The notes under the pieces were generated by a model. That model searched no databases. It was given only the letters and a program-made list of their open reading frames with translations, and was not told the origin of the DNA. Positions 1,302-27,129 of a stretch of 28,551 nucleotides of DNA are shown here, one piece after another. Position 1 is the first letter of the stretch; every line of letters starts with the position of its first letter. Source of the stretch: a virus; the IMG/VR virus record IMGVR_UViG_3300009425_000068, positions 1 to 28,551 of that record. One strand, written 5' to 3'. Position numbers and translations under genes: made by a program.

Positions 1302-2395
1302 TGAATTATTTAACACTAACTAATCAGGTATTAGCAGAATTAAATGAAGTGCAACTAACTAGTAGTAACTTTGTTAGTGGTGCTGTAGGTATTCAACAGA
1401 CTACAAAAGATGTAGTTAATAAAGCACTTAGAGATGTATACTCTTCAGAGCTAGAATGGCCTTGGTTACATAGTGATAAGATACAAGCAACTTTTGCAGG
1501 ACAAAAAGAATATGCACTACCTACTGATTATAGATCAGTTGACTATGATTCATTCTACATAGTTCCTACAGAGTTAGTAACAAATTCAACTTTTGATAGT
1601 AACATAACTAATTGGACAACTTCATCTGGAACTCCAGCATATACAGCTACAGGAAATGGTAGACTAAGATTAAATGCAGCAGCAGCTTATGCTACTCTAT
1701 CAACAGTAAAGAATAAAGAATACAGATTACAAGTTAGATTAATAGATAGTTCTTCTAGCGGATCTAGTTTAAAAATACAAGTAGGCACTTCTCCTGCAGG
1801 CACACAAAATTTAAGTACTACTTTAACAATAGCTGATTTTGGTGATGGCTCAATTCTAGATATTAAATTTACAGCAACTGCATCTACTTCATACTTAACT
1901 TTAGATAATGATGACTCCAATAATTTAGATGTAGATTTTGTAAAGGTATCAGAAAATATTGCACCTAAAAAATTAACATACATTACATATGATGATTATA
2001 GAAGAAGATTTTTAAGTACTGCACAGATAAATAGTAGTGATCAGTACGGAGTTCCTGATTATATATACAAATCACAAGACGGAAAGTTTGGATTGTATCG
2101 TATACCAGATTCAGATGGGTATAGCATAAACTACGAATATTGGAAAACTCATGATGATTTATCGGCTACAACCGATACTCCAGATATACCTGCCAGATTT
2201 CATGATGTAGTAATAGCAAGAACTAAGTACTATATATATCAACTACGATCTGATCCTCAGTTTACTCAATTTGCTGCAGCAGACTATCAGGCAGGAATAA
2301 AAAGAATGAGAATAGAATTAATTAATTCTCCAACACAAATGTTAGATACTCGTGTAAACATTACTAAAACTAGAGGAGCTGCAATAGGTGGCTGA
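1301..2395 (+). CDS. Tail tubular protein A-like adaptor (T7 gp11 type) with inserted beta-sandwich domain
   Basis: The protein is 364 residues long. Residues 1-90 and about 219-340 look like the helical adaptor that joins the portal to the tail in T7-like phages: an N-terminal helix pair with 'NKALRDVYSSELEWPWL', the 'YALPTDYRSVDY' turn, then 'LTYITYDDYRRRFL', 'GLYRIPDSDGYSINYEYWK' and 'PARFHDVVIARTKYYIYQ'. T7 gp11 is about 196 residues. The excess is a block at about 91-218 that starts with 'LVTNSTFDSNITNWT', a typical opening of CBM4/9-like carbohydrate-binding beta-sandwiches. The gene overlaps its upstream neighbour by one base and its downstream neighbour by eight, so the three are likely coupled. 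The adaptor call is from family knowledge; the sugar-binding role of the insert is inference. Confidence 0.75.
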   Translation: MNYLTLTNQVLAELNEVQLTSSNFVSGAVGIQQTTKDVVNKALRDVYSSELEWPWLHSDKIQATFAGQKEYALPTDYRSVDYDSFYIVPTELVTNSTFDSNITNWTTSSGTPAYTATGNGRLRLNAAAAYATLSTVKNKEYRLQVRLIDSSSSGSSLKIQVGTSPAGTQNLSTTLTIADFGDGSILDIKFTATASTSYLTLDNDDSNNLDVDFVKVSENIAPKKLTYITYDDYRRRFLSTAQINSSDQYGVPDYIYKSQDGKFGLYRIPDSDGYSINYEYWKTHDDLSATTDTPDIPARFHDVVIARTKYYIYQLRSDPQFTQFAAADYQAGIKRMRIELINSPTQMLDTRVNITKTRGAAIGG

Positions 2396-3929
2396 TACTT
2401 CACAAATATCTCCCTTTATATATGGGTGCTCTGGAGGTTTAGTATTAAACAAAGATACTTTTTCTTTTCAACCAGGAGAGTCTAGAATATTACAAAACTT
2501 TGAGCCAGACATTAAGGGCGGATATAAAAAAATATTAGGTACTTCATTTTATAATACTAATATTGTTCCTCAAGTATCTAATGCTAATGAACGCGTAGTA
2601 ATGTCTGCTATATTTAATGATAGGGTATTAGTAGCAAGAGGTGGAACTATATATCAAGGAGATGCGGGCAGTGGTAGTTGGACATCTGTACAAGCTAGTT
2701 TAGGAACTCCTACTGCTAACTATACATTTAGTAAATTTAATTTTACTGGGACAGACAATATAGTAGTAGCAACGGGAACTTCATTTCCTAAGATAATAGA
2801 TACTTCTTATAATGTAATTAATGTTAATGCGTCAGGAAGTCAAGATACTTTTAGTATTGTTGAAGTGTTTAAAAATCATATCTTTTTTGCAGGCGCTACA
2901 GGATCTACACAAGAAATTAAATTTATGGGTCCTTTTCAAACTAATGATTTTACTACTGGTAATGGTGGTGGTGCTATTAAAGTAGATACTACAATTATAG
3001 GAATGAAAGTATTTAGGGGTAGCCTATTTATATTTGGGCTAGACAAAATATTTAAGTTAACTGGAACTTCATTAAGTGATTTTTCTATAACTCCAGTAAC
3101 AAGAACTATTGGTTGCTTAGATCGTGGATCAATTCAAGAGCTTGGTGGTGATATTGTATTTCTTGCACCAGATGGAATTAGAACTATTGCAGGTACAGAA
3201 AGAATTGACGATGTCGAATTAGGTACTGTGTCTAAACAAATACAAGAACGTATTGATGAGGTTGGAGTAGATAATATAAGTTCTTTAGTAATAAGAAAAA
3301 AATCTCAATACAGAATGTTTTACCCTAAAACAAGTGGAGCAGAAGTAGCTTCTAGAGCAGTAATATCTGTTGTAAAAACTAATAGTAATACTGGACAATT
3401 AGGTTATGAATATGCAGATATGTTAGGAGTTAAGCCGTCTTGTTGTGATTCTGATTTTGTAGGATCTACTGAAACTGCAGTACATGGTGGCTATGATGGT
3501 TACATATATCTGCAGGAATCAGGTAATGTATTTACTAGAGTAGGCGGTACAGCAAACATAGAAAGTATTTATAAGTCTCCCGATTTAGCAATGGGAGATC
3601 CAGGCATACGCAAGAGTATGCAAAGAGTTATTGTAAACTATACTAATGAAGGGTTAGTAGATGCTGATCTTACATTAAGATATGATTATGATTCGGCAAC
3701 AACGCCACAACCAAGTACTTATCCTTTAAATACAGGAAACGTACCAGCAATTTACGGAACAGGAACATACAACAATTCTACCTATAATCAATCAAGTCTA
3801 CCTTTAGTAAGACAAGATGTACAAGGATCAGGATTTGCAGTAGCTATTAAAGTTATTGATAGTAGTGCCTTTCCACCAATAAGTTTAAAAGGTTTTGAAC
3901 TAGAATTTACCCCAGGAGGCAGAAGATAA
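2388..3929 (+). CDS. Tail tubular protein B / tail nozzle-like protein
   Basis: This 513-residue protein begins with GTG at 2388, set by AGAGGAG about 9 bases upstream; no ATG fits in this frame. The body shows repeated short beta-strands separated by turns, as in the beta-propeller of podoviral nozzle proteins (P22 gp10 and T7 gp12 type). Examples are 'ILQNFEPDIKGGYKKILGT' near the N-terminus, 'VFKNHIFFAGA', 'VFRGSLFIFGLDKIFKLTGT' and 'LGGDIVFLAPDGIRTIAGT'. The first of these, about residue 33 onward, resembles the start of many marine phage tail proteins. Its place directly after the gp11-like adaptor and before the fibre supports the nozzle role at the lower end of the tail. It has no membrane segment. 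Confidence 0.72.
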   Translation: MADTSQISPFIYGCSGGLVLNKDTFSFQPGESRILQNFEPDIKGGYKKILGTSFYNTNIVPQVSNANERVVMSAIFNDRVLVARGGTIYQGDAGSGSWTSVQASLGTPTANYTFSKFNFTGTDNIVVATGTSFPKIIDTSYNVINVNASGSQDTFSIVEVFKNHIFFAGATGSTQEIKFMGPFQTNDFTTGNGGGAIKVDTTIIGMKVFRGSLFIFGLDKIFKLTGTSLSDFSITPVTRTIGCLDRGSIQELGGDIVFLAPDGIRTIAGTERIDDVELGTVSKQIQERIDEVGVDNISSLVIRKKSQYRMFYPKTSGAEVASRAVISVVKTNSNTGQLGYEYADMLGVKPSCCDSDFVGSTETAVHGGYDGYIYLQESGNVFTRVGGTANIESIYKSPDLAMGDPGIRKSMQRVIVNYTNEGLVDADLTLRYDYDSATTPQPSTYPLNTGNVPAIYGTGTYNNSTYNQSSLPLVRQDVQGSGFAVAIKVIDSSAFPPISLKGFELEFTPGGRR

Positions 3930-3930
3930 C

Positions 3931-6900
3931 ATGGCAGGCTACTCAGCTCGACAGAGCTCATATTCAAGTGGAGATACTATTAACGCTGCACATAGTAATG
4001 ATGAATTTAATACTATATTAGCAGCATTTAATGTATCAACAGGACACACACATGACGGCAGTAGTGCTGGTGATGGTGGCCCTATATCTAATCTATTTAG
4101 TAATGCACTAGTATTTGGTACTAATGCAAATACAGATATAGCAATTACATTTAATGCTACTAGTAATGATGGTGTATTAACATGGATGGAAGACGAAGAT
4201 TACTTCCAGTTCTCTGATGATATATTATTAGCAACTACAGAAAAATTACAGTTTAGAGACACTGCTGTATATATTAACTCATCTGCAGATGGTCAACTAG
4301 ACTTAGTGGCAGATACAGAAATACAAATAGCAGCTACTACAGTAGATATTAATGGTGCAGTAGATATATCTGGCAACTTAGGAGTTGGTGGTAATCTAAC
4401 AGTAACAGGTACTACGACTTTTAACGGTGGTACACTTACTTTAGGAAACTCAGCAGGTGACAATGTTGTATTTGGTGCTGACGTAGACTCTAGTATTATA
4501 CCTGATGATGATGATACTTATGACCTTGGTAGTTCTTCACAAGAATGGAGAAACTTATTTATTGATGGTACAGCTAATATAGATAGCCTTGTAGCTGATA
4601 CAGCAGATATTAATGGTGGTACTATTGACGGTGCAGTTATTGGTGGTGCAAGTGCAGCTGCCATAACAGGTACAGCAATTACTGGTACTAGTTTTGTTAT
4701 AGGTTCCGCAGACATTGGAGAAGCAGAACTAGAAATATTAGATGGTGCTACGCTTTCAACTGATGAGATTAATCTCCTTGATGGCGTTACAGCTACAACT
4801 GCAGAGTTAAATATTTTAGATGGTGTTACAGCAAGTGCAACAGATATTAATCTTATTGATGGAATAACCAACGGAACAGTAATAGCAAGTAAGGCTATTA
4901 TAACAGATTTAAACAAAGACATAACTGGTGGTAGAAATATTACTATTAGTGGAGAACTTGATGCGGCTACTTTAGATATATCAGGTAATGTTGATATTAA
5001 CGGAACTACAAACTTAGATGTTGTTGATATAGATGGTGCTGTTGACATGGCTACAACTCTTACTGTAGCAGGTAACGTAGACTTTAATGGTGATTTAGAT
5101 GTAGATGGAACATTAGAAACAGATGCCCTTACTATTGCTGGCGTAACTCTAGCAGAAACAATTAGTGATACTGTAGGAGCTATGGTAACAAGCAATACTG
5201 AATCAGGTATTACAGTAGCTTATCAAGATGCAGATAATACATTAGACTTTACAATCGGTACACTTAACCAAGATACAAGTGGTACAGCAGCAATAGCCAC
5301 AACAGTTACTATTACAGACAACGAAAACACAAACGAAAACAACGCAATTATCTTTACATCTGGTGGAGACTTAGATGGTGGTAACTTAGGTTTAGAATCA
5401 GATGGTGATTTAAAATACAATCCAAGCACAGGAACATTAAGTGTACCTAACGTATCAGTAAGTGGTACATTTAGTACGGTTAATAGTGTTACTATGGATG
5501 CTAACAATGCTGTAATCTTTGAAGGATCAACGGCTGATGCTCACGAAACAACCTTAACATCTATTGATGCTACAGATGATAGAACAATATCTCTACCTAA
5601 CGTATCAGGTACAATTCCTGTATTAGCTGTAGCAAGTAATACACAAATTACTTCTACACCTGAAGAGTTAAATGCCTTAGACGGTATTACTGCAGTAGTC
5701 GGAGAGCTTAATGCTCTTGACATAGGCTCTACAGCTGTTGGTACAGCAGTAGCTTCTAAAGCAGTTATATTAGATTCTAACAAAGATTATACAGGCATAA
5801 GAAACTTAACAATTACTGGTGAGCTAGATGCAGCTACACTAGACATTTCAGGTGCAATAGACGTAGCTGGAACATCAAACTTAGACATAGTGGATATAGA
5901 CGGTGCTGTTGATATGGCTTCTACCCTTCAAGTTGATGGTGTAGCTACTTTTACTGGCAGAGATATTCATAGTGGTGGCATTACTATTGCCAATGCAGGA
6001 CAAATTGGCTCAGTTGGAGATACTGATGCAATCGCAATCGCAAGTGATGGAGTTGTTACTCTCACACAAAAATTAGTAGGTACTGAATTAGACATCTCAG
6101 GCAACATAGACGTAAACGGAACATCAAACCTAGACGTAGTAGATATAGACGGAGCTGTAGATATGGCAACTACACTTACACTTGCTGGTAATGCAGACTT
6201 TAATGGTGATTTAGATGTTGACGGTACTACTAACCTTGATGTCGTAGACATTGATGGTGCGGTAGACATGGCTACTACACTAGCAGTAACAGGTATTGCT
6301 ACTTTTACAGATGATATAATTATAGGTGATGGCAAAACTATTGGTTCTGCTTCAGATGTTGATGCAATAACAATCGCTGCAAACGGACAACTAACACTTA
6401 CACAAACATTAATAGGTACAGCATTAGACATATCTGGTGATGCTGACATTGATGGTACACTAGAAGCTGACGCTATAACAGTTGATGGTACTGCACTAGC
6501 TACAGTTATTGCAGGAACAACAGTCACTAACACAACAAACTCTGCTCACGTTCTAGTAACTGACAATGAAAGCACAAATGAAGAAAATCTTATTGCTTTT
6601 GTAGAAGGTGCAACATCAAGTACAGGTAATGTTGGACTAGAAATGGATGGCAATTTTGCGTATAACCCAAGTACAGGTACAGTTTCAGCTACTATATTTA
6701 AAGGCAATATTGATGCAGTTGATGGAGACTTTGATGGTACTCTTGAGGCTGATGCGATAACTATAGGGGGTACAGCTATTGGTTCTATTTATAGTGTTAT
6801 AGCAGGTAGCTCTAGTATTGTAACAACTGGTGCTTTAAATAGTGGATCTATTACTTCTGGTTTTGGAACCATTAATAATGGGGCATCTGCTATTACAACT

Positions 6901-8748
6901 ACTGGTACAGTTAATTTTGGTAGCCTAGCTGACGGAACCATAACAGTTACAGCATTTGTAGACGAAGATGATATGAGTACAAATTCAGCTACATTAGTAC
7001 CTACCCAGCAGTCTGTAAAGGCTTATGTAGACGCAAATGCTGGTGGGGGTTTATCGTTAATTGATGAAGATAATATGGCTAGTGATTCTGCTGGTAGACC
7101 ACCAAGTCAACAGTCTGTAAAGGCTTTTGTGACTGGATTAACAGGGGGTAACATTGTTGCAACTGGAGCATTAAATTCAGGCTCAGTTACATCAGGATTT
7201 GGAAACATAGATACAGGATCATCTACAATTACAACAACAGGTTTAATTAGTGGTGGTTCTTTAGATATTGATAATGTTTTAATTAATGGCACAACAATAG
7301 GACATACAGATGATACCGATTTAATAACTGTAGCAGATGGTTTAGTAACTGTTGCTGGTGAAATATCAGTAACTACATTAGATATTGGAGGTACTAATGT
7401 ATCTTCAACTGCAGCAGAATTAAATATCCTTGATGGAGTAACTTCAACGGCAGCAGAACTAAACATCTTAGATGGTGTTACTTCTACAGCCGCAGAACTT
7501 AATATACTCGATGGAGTAACTTCAACTGCAGCAGAATTAAATGCTTTAGATGGCATTACCGCAGTTGTAGGTGAGCTAAATGCTCTTGATATAGGATCTA
7601 CGGCTGTAGGAACTGCTGTAGCTTCTAAGGCTGTTATACTAGATTCAAATAAAGATTATACTGGAATTAGAAATTTAACTGTATCTGGTGAACTTGATGC
7701 AGCTACTGGTGATTTTAGTGGTAACGTAGATATAGATGGTACATTAGAAGCTGATGCCATTACTGTAAACGGTACAGCATTGGCTGAAGTTATTTCTGAT
7801 ACTGTTGGAGCTATGGTAAGTTCTAACACTGAGTCAGGAATTACAGTAGCCTATCAAGATGCAGACAATACTCTAGACTTTACAGTTGGAACTCTTAACC
7901 AAAACACTACAGGTTCGGCAGCTACTTTAACAACAGCAAGAACTATTGGTGGCGTAAGTTTTAATGGTAGTGCAAATATTAATTTACCAGGTGTAAATGC
8001 AGCAGGTAACCAAAATACTTCAGGTTCAGCAGCTACTTTAACAAATGCTAGAACAATTGGTGGTGTTTCGTTTAACGGTTCTGCTAATATTAACTTACCT
8101 GGCGTAAATGCAGCAGGTAACCAAAATACTTCAGGTACTGCAGCTACAGTAACTACTGCAGCTCAATCAAACATTACATCATTAGGCACACTAACAACTT
8201 TAACAGTTGATGATATAACTATAAATGGTAGTACAATATCAGATGGTGGTGATCTTACACTTGATGTAGATGGAGATATTATATTAGATGCTAATGGTGG
8301 TGACATATTTTTTAAAGACAATGGTACTACATTTGGTAGTGCAACTAATACTTCAGGAAATTTAATAATTAAATCAGGCACAACTACTGCCGCCACTTTT
8401 AGTGGAGCTAATGTAACACTTGCAGGTACTGTAGGATCGGGTGCAATAACTAGTTCTGGAAACATCACAGCCTTTAGTGACCAACGATTAAAATCAGACA
8501 TCAAAACAATAGATAATGCCTTAGACAAAGTGTCTAAAATGAGAGGTGTTATGTTTATTAAAGATGGAGAACTATCTAGTGGTGTTATAGCACAAGAGAT
8601 GGAACAAGTTGCTCCTGAATTAGTTATGGATGGAGAATATAAATCAGTAGCTTATGGCAATATAGTTGGTTATCTTATTGAATCAATTAAAGAATTAAAA
8701 GCTGAAGTCACAAACTTAAAATGCAGAAAAGAATGTGAGTGTAACTAA
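3931..8748 (+). CDS. Giant repetitive tail fibre with C-terminal S74 intramolecular chaperone
   Basis: This 1605-residue protein is the receptor-binding fibre or a long side fibre. The N-terminal ~150 residues (with 'GHTHDGSS' and 'WMEDEDYFQFSDD') form the likely tail-attachment head. The shaft is built of short beta-repeats such as LDISGNVDINGTTNLDVVDIDG, tandem STAAELNILDGVT units (nt 7405-7560) and two 37-residue GGVSFNGSANINLPGVN units (nt 7900-8121). The C-terminus carries a peptidase S74 chaperone: Ser1516-Asp-Gln-Arg-Leu-Lys1521 and GVIAQEMEQVAPELV. In this family the domain trimerises the shaft, then cuts itself off in front of the serine, here releasing about 90 residues. The last eight residues are Cys-rich (CRKECECN). 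The stop overlaps the next start by one base. Fibre and S74 calls are secure; the ligand is unknown. Confidence 0.9.
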   Translation: MAGYSARQSSYSSGDTINAAHSNDEFNTILAAFNVSTGHTHDGSSAGDGGPISNLFSNALVFGTNANTDIAITFNATSNDGVLTWMEDEDYFQFSDDILLATTEKLQFRDTAVYINSSADGQLDLVADTEIQIAATTVDINGAVDISGNLGVGGNLTVTGTTTFNGGTLTLGNSAGDNVVFGADVDSSIIPDDDDTYDLGSSSQEWRNLFIDGTANIDSLVADTADINGGTIDGAVIGGASAAAITGTAITGTSFVIGSADIGEAELEILDGATLSTDEINLLDGVTATTAELNILDGVTASATDINLIDGITNGTVIASKAIITDLNKDITGGRNITISGELDAATLDISGNVDINGTTNLDVVDIDGAVDMATTLTVAGNVDFNGDLDVDGTLETDALTIAGVTLAETISDTVGAMVTSNTESGITVAYQDADNTLDFTIGTLNQDTSGTAAIATTVTITDNENTNENNAIIFTSGGDLDGGNLGLESDGDLKYNPSTGTLSVPNVSVSGTFSTVNSVTMDANNAVIFEGSTADAHETTLTSIDATDDRTISLPNVSGTIPVLAVASNTQITSTPEELNALDGITAVVGELNALDIGSTAVGTAVASKAVILDSNKDYTGIRNLTITGELDAATLDISGAIDVAGTSNLDIVDIDGAVDMASTLQVDGVATFTGRDIHSGGITIANAGQIGSVGDTDAIAIASDGVVTLTQKLVGTELDISGNIDVNGTSNLDVVDIDGAVDMATTLTLAGNADFNGDLDVDGTTNLDVVDIDGAVDMATTLAVTGIATFTDDIIIGDGKTIGSASDVDAITIAANGQLTLTQTLIGTALDISGDADIDGTLEADAITVDGTALATVIAGTTVTNTTNSAHVLVTDNESTNEENLIAFVEGATSSTGNVGLEMDGNFAYNPSTGTVSATIFKGNIDAVDGDFDGTLEADAITIGGTAIGSIYSVIAGSSSIVTTGALNSGSITSGFGTINNGASAITTTGTVNFGSLADGTITVTAFVDEDDMSTNSATLVPTQQSVKAYVDANAGGGLSLIDEDNMASDSAGRPPSQQSVKAFVTGLTGGNIVATGALNSGSVTSGFGNIDTGSSTITTTGLISGGSLDIDNVLINGTTIGHTDDTDLITVADGLVTVAGEISVTTLDIGGTNVSSTAAELNILDGVTSTAAELNILDGVTSTAAELNILDGVTSTAAELNALDGITAVVGELNALDIGSTAVGTAVASKAVILDSNKDYTGIRNLTVSGELDAATGDFSGNVDIDGTLEADAITVNGTALAEVISDTVGAMVSSNTESGITVAYQDADNTLDFTVGTLNQNTTGSAATLTTARTIGGVSFNGSANINLPGVNAAGNQNTSGSAATLTNARTIGGVSFNGSANINLPGVNAAGNQNTSGTAATVTTAAQSNITSLGTLTTLTVDDITINGSTISDGGDLTLDVDGDIILDANGGDIFFKDNGTTFGSATNTSGNLIIKSGTTTAATFSGANVTLAGTVGSGAITSSGNITAFSDQRLKSDIKTIDNALDKVSKMRGVMFIKDGELSSGVIAQEMEQVAPELVMDGEYKSVAYGNIVGYLIESIKELKAEVTNLKCRKECECN
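5665..5811 (+). repeat. First copy of a 49-codon dispersed fibre repeat
   Basis: These 49 codons encode the segment from ELNALDGITAVVGELNALD to YTGIRNLT. The same 49 residues recur at 7534-7680. The two copies differ at 26 of 49 codons, and all the differences are synonymous. Confidence 0.95.
7405..7560 (+). repeat. Four tandem 39-base repeats (STAAELNILDGVT)
   Basis: Four head-to-tail 13-residue units lie at 7405, 7444, 7483 and 7522. The first three are identical in protein; the fourth has two changes (I to A, V to I). Codons differ between units at many positions, for example leucine as TTA, CTA or CTT at the same place. Related single units occur upstream around 4690-4860. Confidence 0.95.
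7534..7680 (+). repeat. Second copy of the 49-codon dispersed fibre repeat
   Basis: This copy is identical in protein sequence to 5665-5811 but strongly different in DNA (26 synonymous codon changes). It starts inside the fourth unit of the 39-base tandem repeat. Confidence 0.95.
7900..8121 (+). repeat. Two tandem 111-base repeats in the fibre shaft
   Basis: There are two 37-codon units, at 7900-8010 and 8011-8121, plus the start of a third at 8122 (QNTSGTAAT). The units share 35 of 37 residues yet differ synonymously at 13 codons, including serine swaps between AGT and TCG or TCT. The GGVSFNGSANINLPGVN core is common in phage fibre shafts. Confidence 0.93.
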
Positions 8749-9251
8749 TGGCAGTTGCTAGTAGTGGTGCAATTTCACTAAATGACTTTCATACTGAAGC
8801 AGGCGGAAGTGCTAACAGTACCTGTACCCTTAATGATTCTGATATTAGGGGATTAATAGGTAAATCTGCTGGTGCAAGTATGAATTTTGAGGAGTGGTAT
8901 GGAGCGTCAGGTACAGTGTGGAGTACAACTATGACAACTGGAACAACTAGTAATAAGTCTGGAACATTTACTGGTTTTGATAGAGGAAATTTTGGTGCTC
9001 TATCTGATGACACAGTAGACTTTTCAAGTGGTAGACTATGCTTAGATTTAAATCATGAATCAACAGGAAACAAAGTAGTCTTTAGAATTGATACTGGTGC
9101 AACGAATGCAGGTTTTACTACAATGACAGTAGGAAGCACTGCTTATCAACGTACAGACGCAACATTTAGTAGCAATCCTGCTTCGCAAGCAATATGGGAG
9201 TGGGGTAGTAGTAATCCTTTTAGTGGCGAAATAGTAATTACCTGGACTTAA
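8748..9251 (+). CDS. Fibre-associated virion protein
   Basis: This 167-residue protein starts at an ATG that overlaps the fibre stop by one base (TAATG). The N-terminal half (SGAISLNDFHTEAGG, then 'LNDSDIRGLIGKSAGASMNFEEWYG') is a module I associate with marine phage tail proteins, where it is often found in front of variable beta-rich tails. The C-terminal half, from about residue 60, looks like a small beta-sandwich with many Thr, Ser and Gly, ending in 'WEWGSSNPFSGEIVITWT'. It has no membrane segment. It is probably a fibre tip, fibre-capping or second receptor-binding protein; this is inferred from position. Confidence 0.65.
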   Translation: MAVASSGAISLNDFHTEAGGSANSTCTLNDSDIRGLIGKSAGASMNFEEWYGASGTVWSTTMTTGTTSNKSGTFTGFDRGNFGALSDDTVDFSSGRLCLDLNHESTGNKVVFRIDTGATNAGFTTMTVGSTAYQRTDATFSSNPASQAIWEWGSSNPFSGEIVITWT

Positions 9252-9263
9252 TATTAAATAATT

Positions 9264-10445
9264 ATGAATATACTTTTTATAGAATACGACTCTCAACACT
9301 TTCATCAACAAGTTAAATTAGTTGATGGCGGACATAATGTATGGTCTACTTGGAGTAATAAAGAATACCATACAAAATTTGGAATACAGAATTGTGACAG
9401 TGGTAATTGGACAACGTGGACAGAAAGTAGTTATCAGTCTTTGACCAATAAAATTACTAGTTTAAGTATCGATACAGTTATTTTAGGTATACCTTGGTTA
9501 CATTGGTTGCGTGGGGTAATGCCCGAAGGAGTAACCTTTTTAGCCGCTACAGAAGATGCATTTAAACTAGAGACTGATAAATTTGCAACTAGGACTGCAG
9601 TTGGTAACTTAGGTTTAAATGTATTAGATGTTGTAGGACAAGGAAAAACAGATGCTTTTGATTTATCTGGGTATTCAGTAAGGCCTGTTATAGTTAAGCC
9701 TAAAAATAGTTTTGTAGGTACTTATGTTATTTATGAAAATCAAGACGCAGCAGCTATTGCACACTTTGACAATTTTACTGAATCACAACATTATGATTAT
9801 TATTTAGAAAAATTTTTACCAAACATGAAATTAGAGGCAGAGGTACATTTTATTATTGCTAATGATAAATGGGCTATTTACTATACTGGAGAAATGCAAA
9901 ACGAAATAGATCGTAGAACATTTATTAAAAATAAAGCTACCTCTCCTTGGATAAATGATGTAGTCCTTAAAAAACTTTCTTCAGATATTAACACAAAAGT
10001 ATTAGCAGCAGCCAAAACTTTTTTAGATTGGGCTGTTACAAAAGGTGGTAACTATTGTGGCTCAATAAATTTTGGAGTTGATAATAGTGATGAACTTTAT
10101 TGGATTGAATGTAATGCTAGAAAAGATGCTTATAGTTGTTTGCCGTGTAATATATCTGGAAGTGATTATCTTGCGGCACTAACTACAGATCCTGATAAAT
10201 ATGTAACCGATATAAGCCAATGGACATTTACTACAGTAGCATCCACAATAGATAATTCTCCTATTCAGGAGTATCCATTTAACTTACATGCTGAATATGA
10301 AGTTGATCCACCAAACTGTTTGCTTAAACAGGAAGATAAATACAGGACTAATCATGGTGGAATAGTTATATATTCTCAAGGAGATCTTCCTACAGAATTT
10401 GTTACTAAATTAACTGCAGATGGAAAATATAAAATTGTATCGTAA
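9264..10445 (+). CDS. ATP-grasp family ligase
   Basis: This 393-residue cytoplasmic protein has the motifs of an ATP-grasp carboxylate-amine ligase. After an N-terminal domain of ~90 residues come 'ATEDAFKLETDKFATR' (Lys106, a candidate ATP-binding lysine), 'NLGLNV', 'RPVIVKPKNSFVGTYV' (Lys145 and a loop over the phosphates), 'YLEKFLP' (Glu182), 'AEVHF' and 'GSINFGV...LYWIECNARKDA', where Glu282 and Asn284 would hold the magnesium. The order resembles the glycinamide ribonucleotide synthetase core, but the N-terminal domain is different, so it is not PurD. ATP-grasp enzymes join a carboxylate to an amine or thiol through an acyl phosphate. The substrate is unknown. No Shine-Dalgarno is visible in the 12-base gap before the ATG. 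It lies between fibre genes and a SET-domain gene; modification of a virion protein or of the host surface is inference. Confidence 0.78.
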   Translation: MNILFIEYDSQHFHQQVKLVDGGHNVWSTWSNKEYHTKFGIQNCDSGNWTTWTESSYQSLTNKITSLSIDTVILGIPWLHWLRGVMPEGVTFLAATEDAFKLETDKFATRTAVGNLGLNVLDVVGQGKTDAFDLSGYSVRPVIVKPKNSFVGTYVIYENQDAAAIAHFDNFTESQHYDYYLEKFLPNMKLEAEVHFIIANDKWAIYYTGEMQNEIDRRTFIKNKATSPWINDVVLKKLSSDINTKVLAAAKTFLDWAVTKGGNYCGSINFGVDNSDELYWIECNARKDAYSCLPCNISGSDYLAALTTDPDKYVTDISQWTFTTVASTIDNSPIQEYPFNLHAEYEVDPPNCLLKQEDKYRTNHGGIVIYSQGDLPTEFVTKLTADGKYKIVS

Positions 10446-10454
10446 TTAATAAAA

Positions 10455-10925
10455 ATGTTTTATTATAAGGTAGAGAATAGAAAATCACCAATACAAGGAG
10501 AGGGTCTATACACATTAGATGATATTAAAAAGGGCAGTATTATTTTTTATTGGGGATCAGATCAAGATAGGATCATTAATGAAGCTACCTATTTAAAAAA
10601 ACGAAAAGATGTGTCTGATAATATATTTCAAAAAACATCTGGTAGATGGGTACACAATAAATTTTTACACTGCAAAGAATGGGGCCTTGATTGCTATATG
10701 AATCATTCTTACAGCCCTAATATACTATACTATTGTGGTATTGGCTTTGCAAAAAAAGACATTAAAAAAAATGAAGAGCTATTTATAAATTTTCAATACC
10801 TTTTATCAGATAAAGACTCTGCATGTTTTACAGATATAGAAACTAATAGGCAAGTTATAGGGTTAGATAATGACGAATGCTTAAAAGAATCATCTAAAGA
10901 ATTAATCTTATTACTTAATAAATAA
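10455..10925 (+). CDS. SET-domain protein methyltransferase
   Basis: This 156-residue protein has the hallmarks of a SET lysine methyltransferase. SPIQGEGLYTLDDIKKG (11-27) corresponds to the GxG strand that opens the domain, YMNHSYSPN (81-89) is the NHSxxPN SAM-binding and knot motif, and GFAKKDIKKNEELFINFQY (97-115) is the closing segment with an aromatic end. SET enzymes move a methyl group from S-adenosylmethionine to a protein lysine. It has no pre-SET cysteines, like the minimal viral and bacterial forms. It follows the ATP-grasp gene after nine bases, without a clear ribosome binding site, and the DNA is very AT-rich (many AAA and ATA codons). It could methylate a phage structural protein or a host protein; the target is not visible. 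Confidence 0.8.
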   Translation: MFYYKVENRKSPIQGEGLYTLDDIKKGSIIFYWGSDQDRIINEATYLKKRKDVSDNIFQKTSGRWVHNKFLHCKEWGLDCYMNHSYSPNILYYCGIGFAKKDIKKNEELFINFQYLLSDKDSACFTDIETNRQVIGLDNDECLKESSKELILLLNK

Positions 10926-10926
10926 A

Positions 10927-10954
10927 TTGACAAAATTGGTATACATTGTATAAT
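10927..10954 (+). promoter_or_regulatory. Consensus sigma70-type promoter
   Basis: TTGACA (10927-10932) and TATAAT (10949-10954) are both perfect hexamers with a 16-base spacer. The start of transcription would be near 10961, about 38 bases ahead of the XhlA-like gene. This is in the largest gap of the window (73 bases), directly after the SET gene stop. It would let the host RNA polymerase express the downstream genes independently of the fibre operon. Confidence 0.85.
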
Positions 10955-26399: not shown

Positions 26400-27129
26400 A
26401 TCTTCTCTTTACCTCTTTAGAGTTTACCATTTCTATATCATACTCTCCGCCTTTAACATTACGTTTAACTATTAGTCCACTCCACCACATACGTTGGGTA
26501 TTATATGCGTATGATTCTTTGTGTGTCAAGTAACAACCTGCAGATAATCCCATTATCTTTTTACCTGTAGGGTATGCACCTATAGCATAGTCTAGTAGGT
26601 GGCAGTGTCCTACAGTAGATGATACTTTGTTTTTATTAAGTAATGTTCTAGCTATATTTTCTCCAGAGATAGCTGAACCCATCAGCCCACTAGGAAAATT
26701 ATGTGAGTAATGTATACCATCTATAACTACAGGGTATCTATAAGTATACTCATTCCAACCATAGCTTGGATAGTCTAAGTCATCAATAGATATAGCACCT
26801 TCAAGTTCTGGATTATCTTCGACCATACGATCTATACGATCTTCATGATTGCCTAGTGTCATATGCATTTCAGCCTTATGATTGCCCATGCCTTTATTAA
26901 ATAACTCTAGAGCTTGATGTGCATGATCTATATCTTTACGATACCTTCTACCTTGAAAGGACTTCTTACCTCTATCCCAACTAGACAAAGAGTCCATGCT
27001 AGCAAAGTCTCCCATACATATTATCTTATCTGCCCCTATATCTTTTGCCATCCTGCCTGCCCAACTGAATCTTTCGTTACTGGCGGCTGGGGTACAGTGA
27101 GGGTCACCTATTACTAAATGTGTTGTCAT
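26380..27129 (-). CDS. Calcineurin-like metallophosphoesterase
   Basis: This 249-residue enzyme has all the usual metal-binding blocks: Asp9-Pro-His11 (GDPH), Gly40-Asp41 (MGDF), Gly93-Asn94-His95-Glu96 (LGNHED), 'HYSHNF' and 'VGHCHLL'. The two-metal site would split phosphate esters of nucleotides, nucleic acid ends or proteins; the substrate cannot be told from sequence. Phages often carry such enzymes beside nucleases and recombination genes, as here. The start overlaps the previous stop (TAATG on the minus strand). It has no signal peptide. Confidence 0.88.
   Translation of the reverse strand: MTTHLVIGDPHCTPAASNERFSWAGRMAKDIGADKIICMGDFASMDSLSSWDRGKKSFQGRRYRKDIDHAHQALELFNKGMGNHKAEMHMTLGNHEDRIDRMVEDNPELEGAISIDDLDYPSYGWNEYTYRYPVVIDGIHYSHNFPSGLMGSAISGENIARTLLNKNKVSSTVGHCHLLDYAIGAYPTGKKIMGLSAGCYLTHKESYAYNTQRMWWSGLIVKRNVKGGEYDIEMVNSKEVKRRYGRPSK
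26500..26529 (-). promoter_or_regulatory. Perfect-hexamer promoter inside the phosphoesterase gene
   Basis: On the minus strand TTGACA (26529-26524) and TATAAT (26505-26500) are separated by 18 bases. Transcription would start near 26493, about 95 bases ahead of the DUF3310 gene, and could boost the distal part of the operon. It lies in coding sequence, so a chance match cannot be excluded. Confidence 0.5.

Follow-up and report, generated by a model that had tools for sequence, protein, structure and literature searches.

Both protein folds encoded by the gene pair described here are already known, and ATP-grasp enzymes carried by phages have precedents. For the R2K clade of ATP-grasp ligases, encoded by other phages, a role in modifying host proteins has been proposed (PMC4431377, PMC7824862). 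Further points of comparison are the ATP-grasp enzymes biotin carboxylase and PurK, PurT and PurD (PDB 3ouu, 3orr), and the SET domain of human KMT2C/MLL3 (PDB 5f59; PF00856). The SET domain of human MLL5 is inactive: of two active-site tyrosines one has become Ile and the other Phe, and the domain has suffered further losses, among them the motifs for binding S-adenosylmethionine (SAM) (PMC5094779). The literature searched contained no paper combining ATP-grasp, SET domain, phage and tail fiber.

The window, the whole stretch of 28,551 bases analysed here, is a complete IMG/VR virus record, and the parts of it that were compared are 99.9% identical to IMGVR_UViG_3300027791_000101. Its tail protein (positions 2388-3926) shares 55% identity with the counterpart in Pelagibacter phage HTVC033P and 46% with that in Puniceispirillum phage HMO-2011, and on these identities we assign the window to the HMO-2011-type marine podoviruses. 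A long tail fibre gene on the plus strand (3931-8748, 1605 aa) has PHROG tail fibre matches and ends in a Peptidase_S74 intramolecular chaperone (PF13884, E 3.6e-12); within it lies a tandem repeat of about 141 bases (7896-8036 and 8007-8147, 85% identity). The next plus-strand gene encodes a small fibre-type protein of 167 aa (8748-9251; phrog_26746, E 1e-13), whose N-terminal domain is the marine-phage domain MAV[AP]S[ST]GAISLNDFH. Directly 3' of these two genes, and on the same strand, stand a gene for an ATP-grasp-fold protein of 393 aa (9264-10445) and, after 9 bases, one for a SET-domain protein of 156 aa (10455-10925). The initial annotation had placed adjoining ATP-grasp and SET genes in the tail-fibre region, and the ORFs, their spacing and the fibre neighbours all agree with this.

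The product of 9264-10445 is a remote but consistent member of the ATP-grasp fold and a predicted ligase, on the strength of remote profile matches and aligned catalytic residues. No NCBIfam model matched it above the model's own cut-off. The Pfam model CPSase_L_D2 gave E 0.0014, below cut-off, and the biotin carboxylase model accC gave E 1.4e-4 for the window protein and 5e-6 for one relative, likewise below curated cut-offs. The D-Ala-D-Ala ligase model reached E 3e-5 in the same relative, and a search of the PDB with a small profile matched biotin carboxylase 3ouu at E 6e-5. The profile search proposed for this family pointed to the expected fold by several routes, at E values of 5e-6 to 6e-5 at best and below curated cut-offs. 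In contrast to the R2K clade, whose Pfam models found no match in the window protein, its matches are to models of carbamoyl-phosphate synthase, biotin carboxylase and D-Ala ligase.

Alignment with biotin carboxylase places K106, K145, E182, E282, N284 and R286 on its catalytic residues. The two ATP-binding lysines, the adenine-site Glu and the Glu-x-Asn metal site are present and conserved in the full-length relative, and the Glu-x-Asn-x-Arg motif is intact. However, the second acidic metal ligand is absent by alignment: Asn269 stands where biotin carboxylase has the metal-binding Glu276, and Asn occupies this position in both full-length lineages. The "full ATP-grasp blocks" described initially therefore hold for K145, E182, E282 and N284, but not for this metal ligand. 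Carbamoyl-phosphate synthetase has Gln at the equivalent position, so Asn269 does not exclude activity.

The protein comprises an N-terminal Rossmann-like part, the ATP-grasp region at about 89-313 and a C-terminal part at about 314-393, a domain order common to biotin carboxylase and the PurK, PurT and PurD enzymes; identity to the PurK structures is only 13-14% in the alignments. Structure prediction, which the initial annotation had suggested for both active sites, gave models from shallow alignments that were too poor for that purpose (pLDDT 51 for the ATP-grasp protein and 35 for the SET protein), and from the Foldseek matches to the former no more than a hint of the domain order was taken. 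These full-length matches include PurK, PylC, PurD and PurT, and agree with the domain order.

PurK, PylC, PurD and PurT act on small molecules, and biotin carboxylase, the best sequence match, acts on carrier-bound biotin. The ATP-grasp protein might accordingly make a small molecule or peptide-like metabolite as part of auxiliary metabolism, with the SET protein methylating or binding the product. We consider this improbable: the fold matches that favour it come from a model of low confidence (pLDDT 51), proteins are the usual substrates of SET domains, the pair has no further metabolic gene linked to it, and its place among virion genes is conserved. Genes of the virion also flank the window ATP-grasp gene, a setting that separates it from the biotin carboxylase and PurK group.

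The product of 10455-10925 certainly belongs to the SET family by profile match, as the search asked for by the initial annotation gave PF00856 at E 2.1e-10 and 41.4 bits, above the cut-off of 22.4. It resembles the KMT2C/MLL3 SET domain in size, in its GEG and NHSxxPN motifs and in its EEL end block, and retains the SAM-binding motifs as QGEG (14-17) and NHSYSPN (83-89). By these motifs, SAM binding looks intact. The end block differs. It reads EELFINFQY in the window, and EELFINF aligns on EELCYDY of the human KMT2C SET domain, which puts Phe113 at the position of the catalytic Tyr and Ile111 at that of the second Tyr. The catalytic Tyr of the C-terminal ELxxDY block is replaced by Phe in all three distinct SET proteins encoded beside an ATP-grasp gene, and the second tyrosine by Ile or Ala. 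The claim of "full SET blocks" was therefore too strong: GEG and NHSxxPN are present, but the closing block lacks the catalytic residue. With this tyrosine missing, lysine methylation by the SET protein is not assured.

Small single-domain SET genes that resemble the window gene, with 28-33% identity over their length, occur in other IMG/VR contigs (L012-L015 and L004), some of which exceed 78 kb. No ATP-grasp relative was found beside these genes in the stretch read (L004, L012-L015) or in the whole record (L012-L015). Whereas the window protein lacks the catalytic Tyr, the three of these relatives that were compared (L004, L012, L015) keep it.

These substitutions raise the possibility that the SET protein no longer transfers methyl groups and is a non-catalytic partner of the ATP-grasp ligase, namely a SAM- or lysine-binding adaptor. 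We judge this rather unlikely, though less so than the other alternatives considered here, and it is compatible with modification of the fibre. It draws on the uniform Phe (3/3), on the Ile or Ala in place of the second tyrosine, on the retention of Tyr outside the pair, and on the same Ile and Phe in inactive MLL5 (PMC5094779). Unlike MLL5, however, the window protein keeps GEG and NHSxxPN. Furthermore, Tyr115, two residues past Phe113, is invariant among the paired SET proteins and might stand in for the catalytic Tyr, and the SET gene is under purifying selection, as is the ATP-grasp gene, with dN/dS values of 0.12-0.31 across the two.

Close relatives of the pair were sought by IMG/VR scans and found in three further contigs (L010, L011/L021 and L008), in every one of which ATP-grasp and SET genes are adjacent. 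L010 and L011/L021 share the order collagen-like S74 fibre, 2OG-Fe(II) oxygenase, small fibre, ATP-grasp and SET; their products are 50% (ATP-grasp) and 64-68% (SET) identical to those of the window, and their two enzyme genes overlap by 14 bases. L008 has the order ATP-grasp, SET, small gene and tail genes. Because its pair is 78-80% identical to that of L010/L021 and the downstream gene order is common to both, these contigs were counted as one phage group. The survey of marine phages that the initial annotation had suggested thus found the pair near fibres in the window and L010/L021; contig L008 ends inside the ATP-grasp gene and lacks its upstream side. Three IMG/VR motif scans returned only already known loci and chance matches. 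At the sensitivity used, no relative of either protein emerged from tblastn against 50,697 phage records, and none of the ATP-grasp protein from two scans of bacterial genomes.

Comparison of the window ORFs with L021 demonstrated that only the S74 tip (39%), the small fibre (48%), the ATP-grasp protein (50%) and the SET protein (68%) are similar, in the same order, while capsid, portal and the remaining window genes have no detectable similarity there. The S74 tip was dropped as a part of the co-moving block, as it is more similar to the tips of phages without the pair and is a general feature. In a comparison of 12 small fibres, that of the window and that of L010/L021 match each other best, and within this set Lys70 is confined to these two fibres. 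The trio of small fibre, ATP-grasp and SET genes therefore occurs in the same order in two otherwise unrelated marine podovirus groups, a small sample on which its conservation rests. Conversely, the cultured relatives HTVC033P and HMO-2011 share structural genes with the window on both sides of the slot, but lack the small fibre, ATP-grasp and SET genes altogether.

The presence of the pair with the small fibre in unrelated phages, together with its absence from HMO-2011-type relatives, strongly supports a mobile, fibre-linked cassette by gene-content comparison. The cassette proposed in the initial annotation is borne out in this respect, and nothing that had been named there as speaking against it (families not recovered by profile searches, or genes never neighbours and never near the fibre) was encountered. 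Both enzymes are absent from 61 of the 64 loci with the small fibre domain in IMG/VR, which indicates that the small fibre does not need modification and speaks against the fibre as target.

Variation of the slot among HMO-2011-type phages also fits a cargo hot spot beside the fibre, in which the pair would be a host-takeover module that ligates and methylates a host protein such as a ribosomal protein, a translation factor or an envelope protein. The proposal that R2K ligases of other phages modify host proteins points the same way (PMC4431377, PMC7824862). We nevertheless regard this explanation as unlikely: the pair is accompanied by the small fibre gene, whose copies in the two phage groups are reciprocal best matches, and the pair is surrounded by structural genes of the virion instead of lying in an early-type region of its own. 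A role in defence was rejected, because PADLOC gave no match for it.

Other features of the locus were assessed as possible marks of insertion. A consensus sigma-70-type promoter match, TTGACA-16-TATAAT, lies directly 3' of the SET gene on the plus strand (10927-10954). Perfect matches number 2 in the window against 0.05 expected; the second lies on the minus strand at 26500-26529, inside the metallophosphoesterase gene of a leftward gene block. No perfect match was found 3' of the pair in the relatives. Given its position 3' of the pair and the lack of a perfect counterpart in relatives, the promoter at 10927 probably serves not the cassette but the core virion genes that lie downstream of it. 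The promoter noted initially is thus present, but probably does not mark the cassette. Similarly, the pair does lack a Shine-Dalgarno sequence, the longest match upstream of either gene being 3 bases or fewer, but the contrast drawn with the neighbours is weak. Since several core genes also lack one, its absence was rejected as a sign of insertion. GC content is 0.28 for the SET gene and 0.32 for the ATP-grasp gene against 0.35 for the window, a difference too weak to be a signature of recent insertion.

Modifying enzymes of other kinds occupy analogous slots beside the fibre. 2OG-Fe(II) oxygenases were found there in HTVC033P (gp60, gp61), L011, L083, L090 and L114, a tryptophan halogenase gene lies just 3' of a small fibre-type gene in L111 (6821-7993; PF04820, E 6e-32), and an AMP-binding (acyl-adenylating) enzyme or fragment lies near a fibre gene in L120 (7843-8799; PF00501, E 4e-19). 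By analogy, these loci support the view that marine phages generally keep modifying enzymes beside fibre genes, their putative targets. The oxygenases of HTVC033P and L011 resemble the window pair in slot and presumed fibre modification but differ in chemistry, and L011 has both kinds together. In L010 (1373-3159) and L011/L021, a collagen-like S74 fibre with GPT repeats is directly followed by the 2OG-Fe(II) oxygenase gene, which suggests that the phage fibre is proline-hydroxylated by the adjoining oxygenase. HTVC033P gp58 (L022:22952-23596), annotated as "putative ferrochelatase", lies next to oxygenase genes, and its sequence resembles that of a 2OG-Fe(II) oxygenase; a Pfam search of gp58 gave no match, and the PHROG "ferrochelatase" family phrog_3531 also matches the L011 oxygenase. 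The ferrochelatase label is likely a misannotation.

Taken together, we tentatively favour a mobile, fibre-linked protein-modification cassette that acts on a tail-fibre component, at somewhat less than an even chance. The ATP-grasp enzyme would spend ATP to form an acyl-phosphate on a carboxylate, which may belong to a fibre side chain, the fibre chain end or a small acid, and would join the activated carboxylate to an amine. The SET protein would bind the same target as well as S-adenosylmethionine, acting on that target as a methyltransferase with an unusual active site or else serving as a recognition partner. The likeliest target would be the upstream small fibre protein or else the long fibre's tip, and modification could alter or protect the receptor-binding end. 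Of the ideas put forward in the initial annotation, fibre modification remains plausible from gene content and position, with the target inferred, and lysine methylation is weakened because the catalytic tyrosine is missing. The more specific version, in which the ATP-grasp enzyme adds an amino acid or another group to the receptor-binding fibre with help from a non-standard SET protein and the unit moves together with the fibre gene to form a host-contact module, is doubtful.

No report of ATP-dependent ligation on tail fibres was found in the literature searched. If the favoured reading is correct, an abundant marine phage group would build its receptor-binding fibres by such ligation, and would gain a heritable, swappable change of host contact beyond the fibre sequence. 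The SET protein of the cassette would likewise offer a natural case of a virus-encoded SET fold whose active site is altered.
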